In this document: positions 3,084 to 11,397 of the stretch, piece by piece
Layout of the letters: each line of letters opens with the position of its first letter
Numbering within the stretch: position 1 is the first letter of the stretch
Source of the DNA: a virus
DNA length: 37,570 bases
IMG/VR virus record: IMGVR_UViG_3300025671_000188
Span: 1 to 37,570 of that record
Reading direction: 5' to 3' (one strand)
Notes under the pieces: model-generated
The model's database searches: none
What the model was told of the DNA's origin: nothing
The model's input: the letters and a program-made list of their open reading frames with translations, nothing else
Translations under genes and position numbers: made by a program

Positions 3084-3722
3084 ATGCCAGGACCAAGTCC
3101 AAATAGGTTTTCAGCTTCTCAGATAAAAAGTAGATTATTACATAATGCTCAGACATCTGTTTATCAAGTAAGATTGACACCACCTGATTCTGTTATTGGT
3201 TTTTTAAGCAGTAGGGGATTTAGTTATTTTGGTCAGGGTGAAGATGTTGAATTGAGATGTGAATCAGCTTCTTTACCTGGAAGTTCATTTTCAACACACT
3301 CACAAGAAAATGACTATCATGGTGTGAGTGAGAAAATGGCATATAGAAGGTTATATGATTCGACCACTGATTTTACCTTCTATGTTGGTAGAGATTATGG
3401 TGTCATTGAAATGTTTGATGGTTGGATGGATTACATCGCTAATGTTAATCCATTGGATGAATTTAGAGGTCAATACGCTCACCATAGAATGAATTATCCT
3501 CTTGGTGGAACTGGATATCAGAGTAATGTTTTTGTTAGTAAGTTTGAGAAAGATTTAGATCGACCAGGATACAATAGTAGAAGATACTTAGAATATGAAT
3601 TTGTAAGAGCATTTCCACTGAATATGATTGCAACTCCAGTTTCATATGCACCAAGTGACACACTAAGATGTACAGTTTCTATGTCATATATTCGTTATGT
3701 AAAACAAAGAAAAAATGGCTAA
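3084..3722 (+). CDS. 54: Tail-tube-fold baseplate protein, probably gp54 (tail-tube initiator)
   Basis: This 212-residue protein looks like a tail-tube (gp19) family member. Segments such as RCESASLPGSSFSTHS, FTFYVGRDYGVIEMFDGWMDYI (about 112-133) and LEYEFVRAFPLNMIATPVSY followed by a final beta strand give the alternating beta pattern of that fold. In T4-like genomes the proteins of this fold are gp19, gp48 and gp54. gp48 is already present next door and gp19 normally sits beside the tail sheath gene, so gp54, which nucleates the tail tube on the baseplate, is the best choice by context. T4 gp54 is longer (about 320 residues), so this would be a compact form. Purines at 3070-3074 (AAGAG) may serve as ribosome binding site. 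Confidence 0.55.
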   Translation: MPGPSPNRFSASQIKSRLLHNAQTSVYQVRLTPPDSVIGFLSSRGFSYFGQGEDVELRCESASLPGSSFSTHSQENDYHGVSEKMAYRRLYDSTTDFTFYVGRDYGVIEMFDGWMDYIANVNPLDEFRGQYAHHRMNYPLGGTGYQSNVFVSKFEKDLDRPGYNSRRYLEYEFVRAFPLNMIATPVSYAPSDTLRCTVSMSYIRYVKQRKNG

Positions 3723-3766: not shown

Positions 3767-4486
3767 ATGCCATTACCAAAAATTGCTACACCAACATATG
3801 AGTTGGAATTGCCTTCTACAAAAAGTACGATTAAGTATAGACCATTTTTAGTTAAGGAAGAAAAACTCCTGGTTCTTGCATTGGAAAGTGAGGATACAAA
3901 AGAAATTACGACAGCAATTAAATCTGTTATTAAGAATTGTATTCAGACAAGAGGAATTAAAGTAGAAACACTTCCTACATTTGATATTGAATATTTGTTC
4001 TTGAATATTCGTGGTAAATCAGTTGGTGAAGAGGTTGAGGTTAATATCATTGCACCAGATGATGGTGAGACACAAATTTCTGTAACTATTGCTCTCAATG
4101 ATATTAAAGTTGTAGAACACGAAGATCATAACAAACAAATTAAACTTGATGATAATTTAATGATGGAGATGAAGTATCCTTCTCTCGATCAATTTATCAA
4201 GAATAATTTTGATTTTGACCAAAGAAATAATATTGATCAATCATTTGAATTGATTTCTACTTGTATTGATAAGATTTATAATGAAGATGAAGTTTGGTCT
4301 ACTTCTGATGTTTCAAAGAAAGAAGTTATTGAATTCTTAGAACAGATGAATTCTCTTCAGTTCAAACAGATTGAGAAGTTTTTTGAGACGATGCCTAAAC
4401 TTTCACATACTTTGAATGTTGTGAATCCAAAAACAAAAGTGAAGAGTAGTGTCGTTCTGGAGGGATTATCTAGTTTTTTCGCATAG
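3767..4486 (+). CDS. 26: Baseplate hub/tail assembly chaperone gp26
   Basis: This 239-residue protein resembles the gp26 family of marine T4-like phages. It starts MPLPKIATPTYELELPST, followed by the conserved stretch YRPFLVKEEKLLVLALESED (25-44), and ends with LNVVNPKTKVKSSVVLEGLSSFFA. In T4, genes 26 and 51 act in hub assembly and lie side by side, as here. The stop codon at 4484 is preceded by a T-TTT-TTC heptamer in the correct phase for -1 slippage. A fraction of ribosomes may therefore make a longer gp26-gp51 fusion of about 301 residues, as lambda does with gpG and gpGT. The tape-measure-like genes follow directly, which fits a tail assembly chaperone role. Confidence 0.8.
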   Translation: MPLPKIATPTYELELPSTKSTIKYRPFLVKEEKLLVLALESEDTKEITTAIKSVIKNCIQTRGIKVETLPTFDIEYLFLNIRGKSVGEEVEVNIIAPDDGETQISVTIALNDIKVVEHEDHNKQIKLDDNLMMEMKYPSLDQFIKNNFDFDQRNNIDQSFELISTCIDKIYNEDEVWSTSDVSKKEVIEFLEQMNSLQFKQIEKFFETMPKLSHTLNVVNPKTKVKSSVVLEGLSSFFA

Positions 4487-4504
4487 GATTGATCCATATG
4501 GATC
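4474..4504 (+). promoter_or_regulatory. Candidate programmed -1 frameshift site (gp26 to gp51)
   Basis: The heptamer TTTTTTC at 4474-4480 is phased T-TTT-TTC in the gp26 frame, a canonical X-XXY-YYZ slippery sequence. It lies one codon before the gp26 stop (TAG, 4484-4486). Ten bases after it comes GATCCATATGGATC (4491-4504), a perfect palindrome that could form a 5-bp RNA hairpin. After slipping back one base the ribosome reads the 4489-4671 frame without a stop, giving a fusion of about 238 + 63 residues. Confidence 0.65.
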
Positions 4505-4671
4505 TTGAGAACTACTTCAGATTAAATTTTGCTCTGATGCAGTACCATAAATATTCATTGACTGAGATTGAAAATATGATGCCATGGGAACGTGACATCT
4601 ATGTTATATTACTTCAACAGCATCTTGAGGAAGAAGAACTGAAACAAAAACAACGAAATGGCACGACGTAA
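4498..4671 (+). CDS. 51: gp51-like hub assembly factor / frameshift extension of gp26
   Basis: This reading frame gives 57 residues from the ATG at 4498. The open frame reaches upstream through TTG 4489 to the slippery site. The protein contains LTEIENMMPWERDIYVILLQQHLEEEE, a helical segment with the MPWERDIY motif typical of the second half of tail assembly chaperones in other phages. T4 gp51 is far longer (about 249 residues), so the name rests on position between gene 26 and the large tail genes. It may be made by internal start (AGGA at 4485-4488, nine bases before ATG), by -1 frameshift from gp26, or both. It overlaps the next gene by 14 bases. Confidence 0.6.
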   Translation: MDLENYFRLNFALMQYHKYSLTEIENMMPWERDIYVILLQQHLEEEELKQKQRNGTT

Positions 4672-7600
4672 TTTACGAAAAGCTTACGAGTTCAAACTTG
4701 GTAAAGAACGTGCCAGTAAATTGTCTGATGAGCAAATAAATTTGCTCTCAAAGTATTACAACTCTTTAAGTGAATCTGAACAGAGTTCGATTGATAATGC
4801 CATTTCACAAGGAAGAACTAATGATCTTTCCGAAATGGCTGATGTATTTATTGCGGAGAGTGAAGAAAGTGTTGTAACTGAATCTCCGGAAGAAACTATT
4901 CCAGAAGGTCTTGATGACCTTTTGAATGAAGTTAAGGGAAATGAAAATAATGAGGAAGAAACCATTCCAGAAGGTCTTGATGATCTTCTCAAAAGTATAC
5001 AAGAAGTCAAAGAAAAAGTAGAAGATAAACCAGAAGATAAATCAAGTGCTCTTGTTACATATGAACCAACAAGAGATGAAGAACTAGTTGATGAAGAAGT
5101 AGATGAGAGAATTTTAAATATTCTTGGTTTAGATGATGTAGTAGGTATTGACTACGGAACTTATAAAACTCTTCTCAAAGAGAAGATGATTGCTGGTAGA
5201 ATGACTGATAGTCAAATGCCAACAGAAGAAGTAGAACTTCTCACAAATGAATATAAAAGAGTTAAGTCAGAAACTGGTAGATTTAAGATTAGAAAGAAGA
5301 AAATATCTGTAGAATCTTTTACTGAAGAACCACAAAAATCAGAAACAAAACCACAAAAGGCTCAAGTAACTCCTCTTCTTCCTGGTGTTAACTTAAAAAG
5401 GGAAGAAGAGGAAAAGGAAGATCAGAAAGAAGAAGATAAAAAACAGACAGATTCAATTGAAGATTTAAAGACATTTGTAGAAAGATCTCTCGTCCCTGCC
5501 TTATCAAAAGTAGAAAAGAATTTAGAAGGAATCATTTCCACTATAGAAAAACAAGTTGAACTTGAATCCAAACAAGAGAAAAAAGAAAGAATTGCTGCTG
5601 AAAAAACTAAAAAGAGAGTAAGAGAAGAAAAATCGGAAACACCAAAAGAAAATAAGTTTGCAAAAACTCTTGACAAAATTGCAAAACCTGTAAAAGGATT
5701 CATTGAAAGAATTATAGAAATTCTTAGTTCTTTTCTTATTGGTTCTGGTCTCTTACGATTGATTGATATTCTCAAGGATCCAATGGGATATCTTGATAGA
5801 ATAGTTGATTGGACAAATGGAATTATAAAAGGTATAGAGGATCAGATTAAAAAAATAATATCTCCCTTTTATGATGCTGTTAATTTTGTAATATCACAAA
5901 TCAATAATATAGGACAAAAAATTGAAGATACTTTGAATTCTGTTAGGAGTCTTTTTGGTCAACAACCTGATGACAATATTTTTACTCCCATTGATCCTGT
6001 AAAAGTTCCGGATAAAATTCTTCCAAGAATACCAGACCCAAATCCAGAAACTGGACCTGATGCTAAAAATCCTCAACAACCTAGTAGCCAACCAGCTCAA
6101 CCACAATCATCTAGTAGCCAACCAGCTCAACAATTGGCTGGTGGTGGTGAAGTGATTAATATTCAAAATATTTCTTATCAAGGTGGTGGAGATGTAAATA
6201 AAGATTCTGGAATCACCATTACTGGAATGGGTCCCGACACTCAACTCATTGCAGCACAACCTGGTGAAATTGTAATGAGTAAGAAGGCAGTTGATGCCTA
6301 TGGTGCTGATACTCTTCTTTCTATGAATAAAGAAGCTGGAGGCACTAATATACCTCGTATGGGAAATGTCGGTATTCCTGGATATAAGGATGGTGGTATA
6401 GTTGCTGGTGCTCCATTTGATGTCCTCATTCCACTAGACCACACTAAAAAGGCTAGAACCATTCCTGACACACCTAACGGTAATACCTTTGTAGCGTCTA
6501 ACCAGACTGGTGCGATGGGTGAGGAGAGGAAAGGTCAGGACCCTGCTGTTCGTATTATTAAACAGAGACTAGAAGAGCTTGGAGTAAGAACAAAAATTTA
6601 TACACCAGAGATGGCAGGTGACTATCAAACTTATGACAGATATATCAGAAATATGGCATCGAAGGGTGTCAACATCATACCTATCCACTTCGATGCTGGT
6701 ATTGACTATAACCCCAACAATCCCACGTATGGTAAGCAAGTTGGAACAGGGTTCATGACTATCACTGGTGAGGGTGATAGTGGTGATGCTGCTTTGGCTG
6801 AATCTATTGCCGATGTATTGAAATCCTTCCAGTCAAAAAATCCTGATCTTGGTGACTTTGAAGAAAATAGTCAAGGTAATCTTACTGTCAATCTGTCTGG
6901 CAAAACACCCGCAACTCTTATTGAGTTAGGTATCATGGAGTATTGGAGAAAGAAATACGGAAATGATTTTACATCCACACCAGAGTTCACTAACTTTGCT
7001 AAAGATATTGCTGATGCTATCGCAAAAGGTGTAGGAGCTGATCCTAATAATAAAAGTGTAGGTGATAATCTTAATGATAAGAGTGGAGGAAGTGTGATAA
7101 CCACCTCTAAAGAAGCCCATGACGAATTTAAAAAGTTGAAACCTGGTAGTGGGGATAAAATTAGTGTCCCAGGTGTGGGTAGTATTGTGGCCGGTAGGAG
7201 TATTTTCCAGACGCCTATGGTGAAATACTTTAATAAAAATGGTGAACAAGTCACTAAATTTGAGTGGGAAAAAGGATTTAAAAAAGTTAATCCAACACTA
7301 CCATCTACATCACCTAAATCTACTACTCCTAATGCTAAACCTGGTGCTGGTATGTGGACACCAGATGGTTTCCTAACACCTGAAGAACTGACAGAGAGGA
7401 TGTTAACAACACCTCAACCACCAGCACAACCACCAGCACAACCACCAGCACAAGTAAGACCACCAGCACAAGTAAGACCACCAGCACAACCACCAGCACA
7501 ACCACCAGCACAACCACCAGCACAAGTAAGACCACCACAACCTCCAAGTAGGACTATTACACCACCTAGTAGTAGAAGTAGAGTAATTCCACTTCCTATT

Positions 7601-7747
7601 CCTTCTGCTGGTGGAGGTTCACAAAAAAGTCCAATTCTTAGTGGTTCTGGGGCTAATCAAAAACAAGCACCATCATTTAGTTCTACAGATGTAAACAATC
7701 CTGAACTTATCGTCGTTAAAGCAATATACAACATAGTAGGTAATTAA
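4658..7747 (+). CDS. Tape-measure-like tail protein with N-acetylmuramoyl-L-alanine amidase (Amidase_3) domain
   Basis: The 1029 residues fall into clear parts. There is an acidic start with two copies of EETIPEGLDDLL, then a long charged coiled-coil region (about 200-345), then a hydrophobic helix ILSSFLIGSGLLRLIDIL (about 353-371). A tape-measure-like motif follows (AAQPGEIVMSKKAVDAYGADTL). Residues about 582-790 look like an amidase domain, with possible zinc and catalytic residues His595 (LDHTKK), Glu622/623, His677 (IPIHFDA) and Glu756 (TLIELG). A Pro-Pro-Ala-Gln linker and a Gly/Ser-rich tail end it. Such an enzyme cuts the amide bond between muramic acid and peptide. The gene follows a chaperone pair with a slippery site, the usual place of a tape-measure gene. 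I infer that it helps set tail length and opens the cell wall during injection. Confidence 0.65.
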   Translation: MARRNLRKAYEFKLGKERASKLSDEQINLLSKYYNSLSESEQSSIDNAISQGRTNDLSEMADVFIAESEESVVTESPEETIPEGLDDLLNEVKGNENNEEETIPEGLDDLLKSIQEVKEKVEDKPEDKSSALVTYEPTRDEELVDEEVDERILNILGLDDVVGIDYGTYKTLLKEKMIAGRMTDSQMPTEEVELLTNEYKRVKSETGRFKIRKKKISVESFTEEPQKSETKPQKAQVTPLLPGVNLKREEEEKEDQKEEDKKQTDSIEDLKTFVERSLVPALSKVEKNLEGIISTIEKQVELESKQEKKERIAAEKTKKRVREEKSETPKENKFAKTLDKIAKPVKGFIERIIEILSSFLIGSGLLRLIDILKDPMGYLDRIVDWTNGIIKGIEDQIKKIISPFYDAVNFVISQINNIGQKIEDTLNSVRSLFGQQPDDNIFTPIDPVKVPDKILPRIPDPNPETGPDAKNPQQPSSQPAQPQSSSSQPAQQLAGGGEVINIQNISYQGGGDVNKDSGITITGMGPDTQLIAAQPGEIVMSKKAVDAYGADTLLSMNKEAGGTNIPRMGNVGIPGYKDGGIVAGAPFDVLIPLDHTKKARTIPDTPNGNTFVASNQTGAMGEERKGQDPAVRIIKQRLEELGVRTKIYTPEMAGDYQTYDRYIRNMASKGVNIIPIHFDAGIDYNPNNPTYGKQVGTGFMTITGEGDSGDAALAESIADVLKSFQSKNPDLGDFEENSQGNLTVNLSGKTPATLIELGIMEYWRKKYGNDFTSTPEFTNFAKDIADAIAKGVGADPNNKSVGDNLNDKSGGSVITTSKEAHDEFKKLKPGSGDKISVPGVGSIVAGRSIFQTPMVKYFNKNGEQVTKFEWEKGFKKVNPTLPSTSPKSTTPNAKPGAGMWTPDGFLTPEELTERMLTTPQPPAQPPAQPPAQVRPPAQVRPPAQPPAQPPAQPPAQVRPPQPPSRTITPPSSRSRVIPLPIPSAGGGSQKSPILSGSGANQKQAPSFSSTDVNNPELIVVKAIYNIVGN
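7414..7545 (+). repeat. Pro-Pro-Ala-Gln coding tandem repeat
   Basis: A 12-bp unit (CCACCAGCACAA, with GTAAGA insertions) is repeated about ten times and codes for a PPAQ / PPAQVR linker near the C-terminus of the amidase-bearing protein. The same unit recurs at 11092-11163 in the next gene. Its low complexity also opens the reverse strand, which explains a false minus-strand reading frame here. Confidence 0.85.
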
Positions 7748-7749
7748 TC

Positions 7750-10700
7750 ATGGTGTTACCACTTCTTCTCCGAGTAGCTACTTCCAGTATTGTAAAGTCA
7801 ACGGCTAAAAACGCTGTAAAAGGTGCTGTAAAGAGTAAAGCAAAAGATTTTATAAGAGGAAAATCTAAGAAGAAATCTAGTGCCATTGTGAAAGAGGGTG
7901 CCTCAAAAACTGAAGTAAGACCAATATCATCTGCTCTGGTTCCTATCAAAAAGATAGATGAAAAACCAGATATTGTAGATACTCCAACAAAATCAAAAGT
8001 ATCAAAAACTGAATCAAGAACTGATGTTATTGAGAAACAACTCAATAACATTGTAAATCTGACTTCGACACTTAATTCACTTGTATTATCACAATATAAT
8101 CAAAAGAAGAAAACGGAAGAGAAGAGAAGAAAAAAATTAGAAAAGGAAAAGAAAAGAAAAAGAGAAGAAGAACAAGAAACAGAAAAACCCGGTAGTGGGA
8201 TTGTTGGTGGAGCTGTATCAAAGGCAAAACAATTTAATATTTTTGATGCTCTCTTAAATTTCTTTCTTGGAGCTGGTCTTTTAAGATTAATATCTTTCTT
8301 AAAAGGTAATGTTGATGAAAATGGAAAACCAAAAGGATTATTTAAATCATTATCTGAAGGACTTGGAAATGTTCGAAATTTATTTTATGGTTTTAAATTA
8401 GCTAAAGCTGCTCTTGGTTCTTTAGTAAATGCCATTGGTAGGGGATTTAAAGCAATTCCAAATTTATTTAAATCTGTTGTTGGTGTTGCAACAAAAGCTG
8501 TAAAAGGAATTGGTGGTTCTTTAGTAAAAGGTTTTAAAGGATTACTCGGTGGTAATGGAAAAATATTTACTTTTTTTAAAGGAATTGTCGATAAGGCTAA
8601 AAAACTTGCATCAGCTGCAGCAAGACTTAGCGGAATTGATACAAGAACGGATGATGTAAAAAATGCCAGAAAACGTTTGAAGGAATTAGAGAAATTAAGA
8701 AAATTAGATTCTCAAATTTCAAGAACTCTTTCAAAACCTGGAGTAAGTAGAGTTGGTGATCTTGGACGTACTTTAGGAGATAGTAAATCTGGTTATAGAT
8801 CTCCTGATAGATATCGTGCTCCTGGACAAGCTCGTGCTGGTGGATTTCAATTAGAACAAGCACGTAAGGCACGTCAGGCCCTCTCACAAACTGCTCAACC
8901 AACTGTTCCAAAAGCAGGAAATCTTGCTGGAGGTATTAAAGGAAGTTCTTTAACATCTAGAGGTCTTAAAAATGTTCCTGGTCGTCTTGCAACAAGGGTC
9001 ATTGGAAGAGGTGGAAGAGAAACTTTAAGAGGAGTATCGAGAACTGTTAGTCCTGCACTAAAATTTGGTAAAAGAGCTCTGAGTAGAGCACCTCTCATTG
9101 GACCATTACTCGTTGCACTTGAAACATACTTTGAAGATGCTGATGGTGATGGTGAACCAGACAGAAATCTTACTAAAACTTTTTTCACATCGATTGGATC
9201 TTTTGCTGGTGGTGCTCTTGGTGCTGCTTTAGTTGGTGGTGCCACTGTTGGATTTGGAGCAATTCTTGGTGGAATTGTTGGTGAATATATTGGAAAATAT
9301 CTAGGTGAACTTCTTTATATTGCGTTTAAAGGTGGTGGAGTTGGAGAAGTTGGTAAAAAAATAAAGGAGGATATGACTAATGCCTTAACTGAAGGTGCTA
9401 AGTATGCTAGAATGATAAAAGATTGGGCTAAAAAAGGATTTGGAAGATTATATGAAAGTCTTCCAAAAACTAGTTTTTATATTCCATTCAATCCTTTTGG
9501 TATAAACGATATGGAATTTCTTGAACCCAATTTGATAAAAATTATATTCAGTGCCGTGATGAACATTCCAAAAGCATTTTTCAGTGATGATCCTATGAAA
9601 CCAGGTGAAGTTGACAAAAAGGATGATAAGAAAAATAACAAAAAGAATGAAAATGTAAAACGTAAAGTAGGAACTAAGGCTATTTTAGGTGGAAAACCTG
9701 TAATTTGGGCAGGTGATAATTATGGGTGGCAATCTCCTGAGAGTTATAAGAAATTATATCCTTCCGAAACACCATCAGGACCAACATCTTCTGGGAGATC
9801 CCCTCAAGGTTATAATTCAACATTGATGCCTTCATCCAAAGCAAGTAATCTATACAGTAAATTACGTATTACTGCATCACAGTGGAAAACTTATAAGGAT
9901 ACACTTGCTTCAATTGAGACTAGTGGATTTAGTTTGAAAGAATCTTATAGGGTGATTGGGGGGACTGATCAACGTCATGATGGTCGTTATCAAATGGGTG
10001 AAGATTCAAAGAAAGATGCTGCAAGAATTTTAGGAATTCCCGTCCCTTCAAGAGAACAATTTAGAAATGATGCTCAACTCCAAGAGGATATGTTTCTGGC
10101 TTATACTGCAGCAAATGATGGATATCTTTCAGGACCAAGAGGATCAACACGATATAAAAAATCAGGTGGAATTGAAAGACTTACGTATCTAGGATTTGCT
10201 CACAATCAAGGTTGGGCTAATGCAGCAAACTGGTTAGACAGTAACATGACGAAGGATCCAACCCGTGATGGATTTGGAACTTCGGGCACTGAATTCACTA
10301 AGGCGTTGAGAAAGGCTTTTGGTTCACAATCCTCCACAACTCAACAAACACTATTAACACCATCTTCAACATCTTCGCCTAATCCTACTCAAGGACCAAC
10401 AAATCTTTTGAATATATTTGCACGTGCTGGTAGTACACAAGCACAACAAATCCAATCACAACTTACACCACAACAAGCACAACCATCAACACCCCCAGTT
10501 CCTCAACAAACACCATTAACACCCCCAGTTCCTCAACAACCACAACTTGGAAGTACAGGTCAAAATTTACCTGGCATTATAAAAAAGAAAGGATCTACGA
10601 CTGGAACAAATTATGATGATTTGATCAGTGGTTTCCCAGTAACATCTCCATATAGATCTCCGCGCAGACCAGACCACAAGGGTATTGACATCGGAACACC

Positions 10701-11397
10701 AGTGGGAACATATGTTGCATTGGATGTTGATGTTGAAATTGTGTTTGCAGGATTGCATGGAAGAGGACCAGGAAACGGTTACGGAAATGTTGTTGATGCA
10801 TGGGCACCATCTCTTGGATTACAATTTAGACTTGCACACTTAAATAAAATACTTGTAAGAAAAGGACAAAGGATACCTGCTGGTGTTCCTCTTGGTCAAA
10901 CTGGTGGAGCAAAAGGTGATGTAGGTAGAGGTAGTTCTTCTGGACCTCACCTTCACTTTGAGGTTGATAATAAGAAAGATGGTACCAATTATGGTGGAAT
11001 GGGAAATCCTTCACCATATGTTGGTCACTTGATCTTGAGTAGTTCCCCACCAACTGGTCAGACACCTGGAGGAACATCACAAGTAGTACCACCAACACAA
11101 CCACCAGCACAAGTAAGACCACCAGCACAACTACCAGCACAAGTAGTACCACCAGCACAAGTAACACCAAGAGGAACATCACAAAATACTGAAGTTCTGG
11201 AACAATATGCAGAATATGAAAATGGTGGAGAAGAAAATGTAGTTGTCCCAATTCCTGTTGGTGGTGGAGGTTCACCAGTTATTATTGGCGGTGGTGGTGA
11301 ACAAGTTCCTTTAATCACTCCAGGAGGGTCTCCAGAAACTATGGTAAATAATTGGTGGAGAGTACAACTCTTAGGTTTCTTATATAAACAAGGATAA
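7750..11397 (+). CDS. Tape-measure-like tail protein with lytic transglycosylase-like and M23 endopeptidase domains
   Basis: This 1215-residue protein has a basic coiled-coil region (about 115-145, KKTEEKRRKKLEKEKKRKRE) and a hydrophobic segment LLNFFLGAGLLRLISFL (about 171-187) related to that in the preceding gene. A glycine-zipper hydrophobic region follows (about 478-518). Residues about 707-830 look like a lytic transglycosylase: Glu723 in SIETSG, then HDGRYQMG and PSREQF. Residues about 965-1090 are an M23/LytM peptidase with His976 and Asp980 (HKGID), His1030 (LAHL) and the HLH pair His1067/His1069. The two enzymes would cut glycan strands and peptide cross-links. PPAQ linkers separate the C-terminal part. 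It starts two bases after the preceding stop and ends in a TAATG overlap with gene 27. It is probably a tape-measure or hub-associated protein. Confidence 0.7.
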   Translation: MVLPLLLRVATSSIVKSTAKNAVKGAVKSKAKDFIRGKSKKKSSAIVKEGASKTEVRPISSALVPIKKIDEKPDIVDTPTKSKVSKTESRTDVIEKQLNNIVNLTSTLNSLVLSQYNQKKKTEEKRRKKLEKEKKRKREEEQETEKPGSGIVGGAVSKAKQFNIFDALLNFFLGAGLLRLISFLKGNVDENGKPKGLFKSLSEGLGNVRNLFYGFKLAKAALGSLVNAIGRGFKAIPNLFKSVVGVATKAVKGIGGSLVKGFKGLLGGNGKIFTFFKGIVDKAKKLASAAARLSGIDTRTDDVKNARKRLKELEKLRKLDSQISRTLSKPGVSRVGDLGRTLGDSKSGYRSPDRYRAPGQARAGGFQLEQARKARQALSQTAQPTVPKAGNLAGGIKGSSLTSRGLKNVPGRLATRVIGRGGRETLRGVSRTVSPALKFGKRALSRAPLIGPLLVALETYFEDADGDGEPDRNLTKTFFTSIGSFAGGALGAALVGGATVGFGAILGGIVGEYIGKYLGELLYIAFKGGGVGEVGKKIKEDMTNALTEGAKYARMIKDWAKKGFGRLYESLPKTSFYIPFNPFGINDMEFLEPNLIKIIFSAVMNIPKAFFSDDPMKPGEVDKKDDKKNNKKNENVKRKVGTKAILGGKPVIWAGDNYGWQSPESYKKLYPSETPSGPTSSGRSPQGYNSTLMPSSKASNLYSKLRITASQWKTYKDTLASIETSGFSLKESYRVIGGTDQRHDGRYQMGEDSKKDAARILGIPVPSREQFRNDAQLQEDMFLAYTAANDGYLSGPRGSTRYKKSGGIERLTYLGFAHNQGWANAANWLDSNMTKDPTRDGFGTSGTEFTKALRKAFGSQSSTTQQTLLTPSSTSSPNPTQGPTNLLNIFARAGSTQAQQIQSQLTPQQAQPSTPPVPQQTPLTPPVPQQPQLGSTGQNLPGIIKKKGSTTGTNYDDLISGFPVTSPYRSPRRPDHKGIDIGTPVGTYVALDVDVEIVFAGLHGRGPGNGYGNVVDAWAPSLGLQFRLAHLNKILVRKGQRIPAGVPLGQTGGAKGDVGRGSSSGPHLHFEVDNKKDGTNYGGMGNPSPYVGHLILSSSPPTGQTPGGTSQVVPPTQPPAQVRPPAQLPAQVVPPAQVTPRGTSQNTEVLEQYAEYENGGEENVVVPIPVGGGGSPVIIGGGGEQVPLITPGGSPETMVNNWWRVQLLGFLYKQG
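11092..11163 (+). repeat. Second Pro-Pro-Ala-Gln coding repeat
   Basis: About six imperfect copies of the CCACCAGCACAA unit code for a PPAQ-type linker just after the M23 domain. The units are close to those at 7414-7545, which suggests exchange or shared ancestry of the two large genes. Confidence 0.8.

Follow-up and report, generated by a model that had tools for sequence, protein, structure and literature searches.

A predicted -1 frameshift joins gp26 and gp51 into a proposed tail assembly chaperone locus in an uncultivated T4-like phage

Results

Organization of the gp26-gp51 locus

The window analysed here is a 37,570-base stretch of DNA from a marine T4-like virus (IMG/VR record IMGVR_UViG_3300025671_000188) with T4-type baseplate, tail and head genes. 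We focused on a gp26-like gene, the gp51-like open reading frame (ORF) that follows it, and the slippery heptamer T_TTT_TTC at their junction, where a -1 frameshift is predicted to fuse the two (Table 1). The gp26-like protein matches the families PF12322 (T4_baseplate, 2.5e-74) and phrog_150 (1.7e-79), and among named phages its closest counterparts, with identity up to 83.7%, belong to Synechococcus and Prochlorococcus phages. The context is T4-like, as baseplate wedge, tail tube cap, DNA end protector and head closure families are matched around the locus.

An earlier note, made from the sequence of the window, had claimed that the heptamer lies in phase one codon before the gp26 stop and that the -1 frame runs on into a gp51-like segment containing the motif MPWERDIY. 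Both observations were confirmed. The gp26-like ORF ends with AGT TTT TTC GCA TAG, in which the heptamer occupies the X_XXY_YYZ phase and a single codon (GCA) precedes the TAG. The -1 frame, which is shut by a TAG immediately upstream, is open from the heptamer onwards in frame with the gp51-like ORF and reads FF-RIGLIH-MDLENYF...MPWERDIY.... When this reading was taken from the heptamer, it scored somewhat better against the gp51 family phrog_634 (1.1e-29) than the version started at the AUG (2.9e-27). The predicted product of the shift consists of 301 amino acids.

Table 1 Coordinates of the features of the locus and its neighbours in the window.
Feature	Position	Strand	Remarks
gp26-like gene, proposed short tail assembly chaperone (TAC-N)	3767..4486	+	239 aa, stop TAG 4484-4486
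TAG shutting the -1 frame immediately 5' of the heptamer	4471..4473	+	
Slippery heptamer T_TTT_TTC	4474..4480	+	two Phe codons, would re-pair as TTT TTT
-1 extension from the heptamer through gp51 (proposed TAC-C)	4474..4671	+	stop 4669-4671
Stem-loop GATCC-ATAT-GGATC	4491..4504	+	10 nt 3' of the heptamer
AUG conventionally used as gp51 start	4498..4500	+	in the stem-loop: loop and first base of the 3' stem
Tail tube protein gene	3084..3722	+	directly upstream of gp26; phrog_45 5.9e-25, PF23849 5e-9
1029-aa protein, candidate tape measure	4658..7747	+	overlaps the gp51 end; weak family matches, role inferred from position

Conservation of the heptamer and of the -1 frame

Two sets of relatives were compared. 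The first comprises 80 IMG/VR relatives and the window (81 sequences, 71-98% identity). The wider set adds 160 loci found with the gp26 of phages syn9 and P-SSM2 to give 241 sequences, which were reduced to 183 distinct sites by dropping 54 duplicates and four sequences that were too short (L059, L166, L230 and L275).

TTTTTTC is in phase at the site in 81/81 sequences of the first set and stands exactly 10 nt before the gp26 stop at all 183 distinct sites. Conservation of the heptamer in relatives, which the earlier note had proposed as a check, was thus borne out. At the other Phe-Phe pairs encoded by 336 ORFs of the 81 sequences, the same arrangement T|TTT|TTC is used in only 6 of 266 cases, which argues against a heptamer that arose by chance, and we rejected chance as the main account. 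Codons 237 and 238 of gp26, both within the heptamer, are the only two of 231 scored columns without synonymous variation. The preceding codon always ends in T at the 183 sites (AGT 120, TCT 47, AAT 9, GCT 5, GGT 2); the gp26 stop itself varies (TAG 106, TAA 67, TGA 10). The -1 frame is shut within 30 nt upstream of the heptamer in 70 of the 81 sequences.

The site extends well beyond the close relatives. Among 14 diverged named phages, eight carry T_TTT_TTC and four T_TTT_TTT, so that T_TTT_TTY is found in 12 and neither form in two. All 14 can be read in the -1 frame into the gp51 domain without meeting a stop. The carriers include phages of Pelagibacter, Caulobacter, Pseudomonas, Stenotrophomonas and Delftia as well as four Straboviridae (AS-yj, VmeM-32, ValKK3 and Ci1). 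P-SSM2 and syn9 also carry the heptamer. Scans with the gp26 of ValKK3, AS-yj, HTVC008M and T4 yielded 2, 4, 11 and 6 loci, respectively. The 15 intact loci of non-T4 type among 20 compared (L098-L105, L107-L112 and L114) all have the site, although several of them duplicate, exactly or almost so, phages of the named set above, and four T4-type loci (L115-L117 and L119) have no open -1 extension. L106, which has an in-frame stop inside gp26, the truncated sequences L113, L118 and L120, and L096 were left out of the count.

The stretch between the heptamer and the conventional gp51 AUG is also conserved as protein. In the first set it reads FFR[IVL][AGSV][ML]x[HY]. Over the 183 sites it consists of F, F, R (178), I/V/L, mostly S/A/G, M/L, a variable residue and then, at codon 8, H (180) or Y (3); codon 9, which is the AUG in the clade of the window, encodes Met at 84 sites and Glu at 69. 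With the stop-codon columns left out, the mean entropy of the columns ahead of the AUG is 1.09, 0.55 and 1.36 bits at the first, second and third -1-frame positions. Second positions therefore vary least, as expected for coding sequence, although over few columns.

A stem-loop downstream of the heptamer

The earlier note had also pointed to a hairpin after the heptamer. A hairpin of five base pairs is indeed found there, and it covaries in the clade of the window, but the fold of the window by itself is not significant. In an alignment of 80 sequences, changes on both sides are seen in 5/5 pairs, and 86.8% of the cells are paired. The alignment holds 43 double-change cells, compared with 11.1 in shuffles, and none of 500 shuffles reached 43. 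Every measure dropped when the hairpin partner was slid by 1 to 3 columns, and RNAalifold, unaided, recovered four of the same pairs. Resampling of the 39 nt 3' of the heptamer with the codons of the -1 frame replaced by synonyms gave a mean z of -2.42 over the 183 sites, 62% of which had p <=0.05, whereas the mean z at seven control offsets lay between -0.04 and -0.89.

Other folding results count against the stem-loop. In the 80-sequence version of the codon-preserving test, the site scored -1.69 and the controls -0.43 (offset 51) and -1.21 (offset 90). For the window alone, a 50-nt fold gave a z of -1.28, which is not significant, and preferred a different pairing; a 39-nt fold predicted the hairpin, yet 10.5% of the codon-resampled sequences folded equally well. 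The case for the stem-loop therefore stands on the relatives. When 15 sequences were folded singly over 50 nt against dinucleotide shuffles, five were significant (P-SSM2 -4.11, L103 -4.04, Cr30 -3.85, L114 -2.38 and S-CAM4 -2.30) and ten were not, the window included (pf16 -1.48, ValKK3 -1.46, YB07 -0.89, HTVC008M -0.87, VmeM-32 -0.15, AS-yj -0.10, syn9 0.10, Ci1 0.20 and W-14 1.59, the last folding worse than its own shuffles). By this division, the stem-loop belongs to some lineages and is not universal. A longer stem drawn by hand proved to be mis-registered, with 33.9% of its cells paired, and found no support.

The stem-loop would be expected to stimulate slippage. We tentatively suggest, at somewhat below even credence, that in cyanophage-type T4 relatives it may have two jobs, stimulating the -1 shift and, in the clade of the window, hiding the gp51 AUG within its loop so that the C-terminal domain is made only within the long chaperone. 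In this suggestion, the replacement of the pairings in lineages where the stem keeps its place would mean that the structure and not the sequence is under selection. The covarying stem-loop offers a concrete target for a reporter test.

T4 homologues and the fold of gp26

In T4 gp51 (249 aa), residues 3-248 match the gp26 family and residues 147-246 the gp51 family, while T4 gp26 has a match to the former family and none to the latter. In an alignment with 13 proposed fusions, T4 gp51 passes the junction in one frame and T4 gp26 ends just after it. T4 gp51 thus consists of a 26-like domain and a 51 domain, and in T4 the short and the long form have a gene each. As these two genes of T4 (L081) are on opposite strands, with 50 bases between them, no frameshift joins them. 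The statement of the earlier note that T4 has separate genes 26 and 51 holds to that extent, but the two genes are not two halves of one fusion. A short and a long form that share their N-terminal domain are present as coding potential at the locus, with the T4 homologue of the long form fused in frame. The T4 pair looks as if a single gene had been copied and the copies had diverged.

A structure model of gp26, built from a 28-row alignment, had a predicted local distance difference test score (pLDDT) of 86.2 and a predicted template modelling score (pTM) of 0.81. Against predicted viral structures, gp26-type proteins rank first (best E 1.5e-19), and the model also matches a gp51-labelled protein of Acinetobacter phage ZZ1 (E 2.3e-5), which fits a gp51 of T4-type phages that contains a gp26-like domain. 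Among solved structures, VIA placed three matches together at the top for residues 1-96: 2ob9, the tail assembly chaperone of HK97 (Z 8.0, root-mean-square deviation (rmsd) 3.8 over 84 residues), 3fgx (Z 8.0, rmsd 4.2 over 86) and 3klu (Z 7.2, rmsd 4.2 over 86), the next row having a Z of 4.9. We take 3fgx and 3klu to be chaperone-type proteins of the same group as 2ob9.

Points on the other side are that a Z of about 8 is, by the caveat of the tool, a common best score for models without a match, and that a Foldseek search of the PDB with the gp26 model gave no match at E <=0.001, with 2ob9 at 1.8 (range 1.8-1.9). A sequence search for solved relatives of gp26 or T4 gp51 returned none, its single match at E 0.65 being taken as chance. 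Because these fold scores are borderline and such Z values are common, we count them as support and not as proof. The model nevertheless suggests a chaperone-like fold for the N-terminal domain of gp26, and 'baseplate hub' would then probably be the wrong label for gp26.

The fourth VIA match, to residues 6-90 of the model, is 5ir0 (Z 4.9), ORF19 of an element of Vibrio cholerae that resembles a phage-inducible chromosomal island (PICI). If a satellite protein looks like a tail chaperone, this would be in keeping with interference with tail assembly, and we mention it as a lead only.

Discussion

A proposed tail assembly chaperone locus with a short and a long form

We consider it very probable that gp26 and gp51 make up one tail assembly chaperone locus, with gp26 as the short form and the shifted gp26-51 as the long form, in the manner of lambda G and GT. 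The frameshift and the G/GT parallel drawn in the earlier note are upheld by the comparative tests, with the fold comparison as borderline support. On comparative grounds, our confidence in a functional -1 frameshift is high. In the proposed mechanism, most ribosomes would read gp26 to its stop and produce the short form (TAC-N). A minority would pause over UUU-UUC, where both tRNA-Phe could re-pair one base back on UUU-UUU, and translation would carry on in the -1 frame through gp51 to yield the long form (TAC-NC). The stem-loop in the mRNA just 3' of the heptamer would promote the slip in many cyanophage-type members. Like gpG and gpGT of lambda, the two forms would then coat the tape measure and bring in the subunits of the tube. 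We infer the slippage itself, its minority share and its rate, the binding to tape measure and tube, and the chaperone function.

Several observations limit the case for a frameshift or weigh against it as the route to gp51. Some slippery heptamer lies within the last 12 codons of 21 of 255 other genes, so a single sequence would not be decisive. Each list of relatives holds the best 80, and since the sequences within a set are akin, the counts given above represent neither independent events nor a census. The Vibrio phages K448 and K476 (L089 and L092) lack the heptamer, with A_CTT_TTC and G_CTT_TTT in its place, and have an AUG that overlaps the gp26 stop; their -1 frame is still open, and they may have switched to restart or may use another slip. 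An AUG overlapping the stop is also found in ValKK3, YB07, W-14 and Cr30, all of which carry the heptamer. The AUG at codon 9 is present in 78 of the 81 sequences of the first set, the window included, and could serve restart as a second route. In the window this AUG lies 11 nt past the gp26 stop with AGGA upstream. Read in the -1 frame, 125 of the 183 sites have their first Met at codon 6, 31 at codon 9 and 23 at codon 21 or later.

These observations bear on two alternatives. The first is compatible with the proposed frameshift: the shift would make the fusion, and reinitiation near the stop would make some free gp51 domain, in a mix that depends on the lineage. The heptamer and a near-stop Met do occur together in many relatives, but the Met moves between lineages while the fused reading is kept, and in the close relatives of the window the AUG sits in the stem-loop. 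We regard this mix as rather less likely than not.

The second alternative, that gp51 is made only as a separate protein, either from an AUG of its own or through coupled termination-reinitiation, and that the T-run is a by-product of a conserved Phe-Phe pair, draws on the same near-stop Met codons in the window and its relatives. It leaves several features without an explanation. The codon choice for the Phe pair is invariant at the site and rare elsewhere, and the residues ahead of the AUG are kept in the -1 frame. Upstream of the codon-9 AUG, 10 of 78 sequences have a Shine-Dalgarno core of 4 nt or longer, against 50 of 81 for the gp26 start. Codons 3-20 contain no Met at 23 of the 183 sites, of which 17 are also without GTG or TTG there and six have one. 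As the Met positions differ between lineages, the sites have no start position in common, whereas they do share the fused reading. T4, moreover, has the fusion in frame. We rejected free gp51 as the main account and consider it very unlikely. Transcriptional slippage on the T-run, instead of ribosomal slippage, as the source of a fusion message is more improbable still and was likewise rejected. The six consecutive T of the window, and the seven or eight of some diverged relatives, would suit it, but the run is TTTTTTC at all 183 sites, and the kept codon phase with a covarying RNA stem-loop in the clade of the window would fit ribosomal slippage better.

Among 14 annotated regions of named phages that contain gp26, not one lists gp26 and gp51 as a joined product. 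The gp51 gene is unannotated in S-CAM4 (L095), VmeM-32 (L085) and AS-yj (L088), and in HTVC008M (L082), syn9 (L094), Ci1 (L091) and K448 (L089) some 47 bases or more separate the gp26 stop from the start of the next annotated ORF. Likely, gp51 is missing or starts late in such annotations because gene callers need a start codon.

Relation to known systems

The locus differs from lambda G/GT in its sequence and in its heptamer. Work by Vladimirov and colleagues in 2022 reportedly concerns genes 26 and 51, with the shift said to be retained in several T4-like groups. The resemblance to lambda gpG/gpGT is that two chaperone forms acting on the tape measure are linked by a -1 shift close to where the upstream gene ends (PMC5009743). 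T4 genes 26 and 51 have homologous domains, with gp51 spanning both, but unlike the genes of the window they lie on opposite strands without a frameshift link. In the TAC locus of Vandenendeviridae and phage Adele, TAC-N ends with a conserved GTTTTT at which a -1 shift takes place, so that the downstream ORF is re-read as TAC-C (PMC12846349); theirs is another phage family and another motif.

The earlier note held that a frameshift-linked version would connect T4 with the lambda-type arrangement, a connection that is already in print. Vladimirov, Gautam & Davidson 2022 (Virology 566:9-15) are credited with poly-T frameshift signals in T4-like TAC-N genes (PMC12846349) and with T4-like phages that instead have a short gene alongside a longer fusion gene (PRFect, PMC10885494). 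On the strength of these citations, we count the frameshifted chaperone of T4-like phages as already known, and the window is a new, uncultivated and well-supported example of it. The titles, openings of abstracts and passages in the capped lists searched, with few searches aimed at a hairpin and subscription journals mostly outside their reach, contained no recognisable report of the locus in cyanophages or of the stem-loop. According to a 2016 review, the G-T frameshift is widely conserved among long-tailed phages 'except T4' (PMC5009743), and a review of the T4 tail gives gp26 and gp51 as hub assembly chaperones (PMC3004832). The comparative figures support a G/GT scheme that reaches deep into the T4 superfamily, where the 2016 review had T4 as the exception.

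Neighbouring genes

The order expected for tube, chaperone and tape measure is partly seen in the window, with the tail tube gene adjoining gp26 upstream and a weakly supported tape measure downstream. The earlier note had placed a tape-measure-like gene after gp51. An ORF for a protein of 1029 aa is found there, but its matches to tape-measure families are weak (best named 4.9e-5), and relatives of the protein occur in 14 phage records, at the limit used. This protein and the large protein encoded at 7750-11397 are alike in a PPAQ stretch rich in proline and of low complexity (BLASTP 4e-8), with a further weak likeness (0.001) around a segment ending GLLRLIxxLK. The protein of 7750-11397 has an M23 peptidase domain. 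On the minus strand, the DNA end protector (gp2-like) ORF at 2209-2592 encodes 127 aa that match positions 23-110 of a 210-position profile, and by its sequence it is a short or damaged version.
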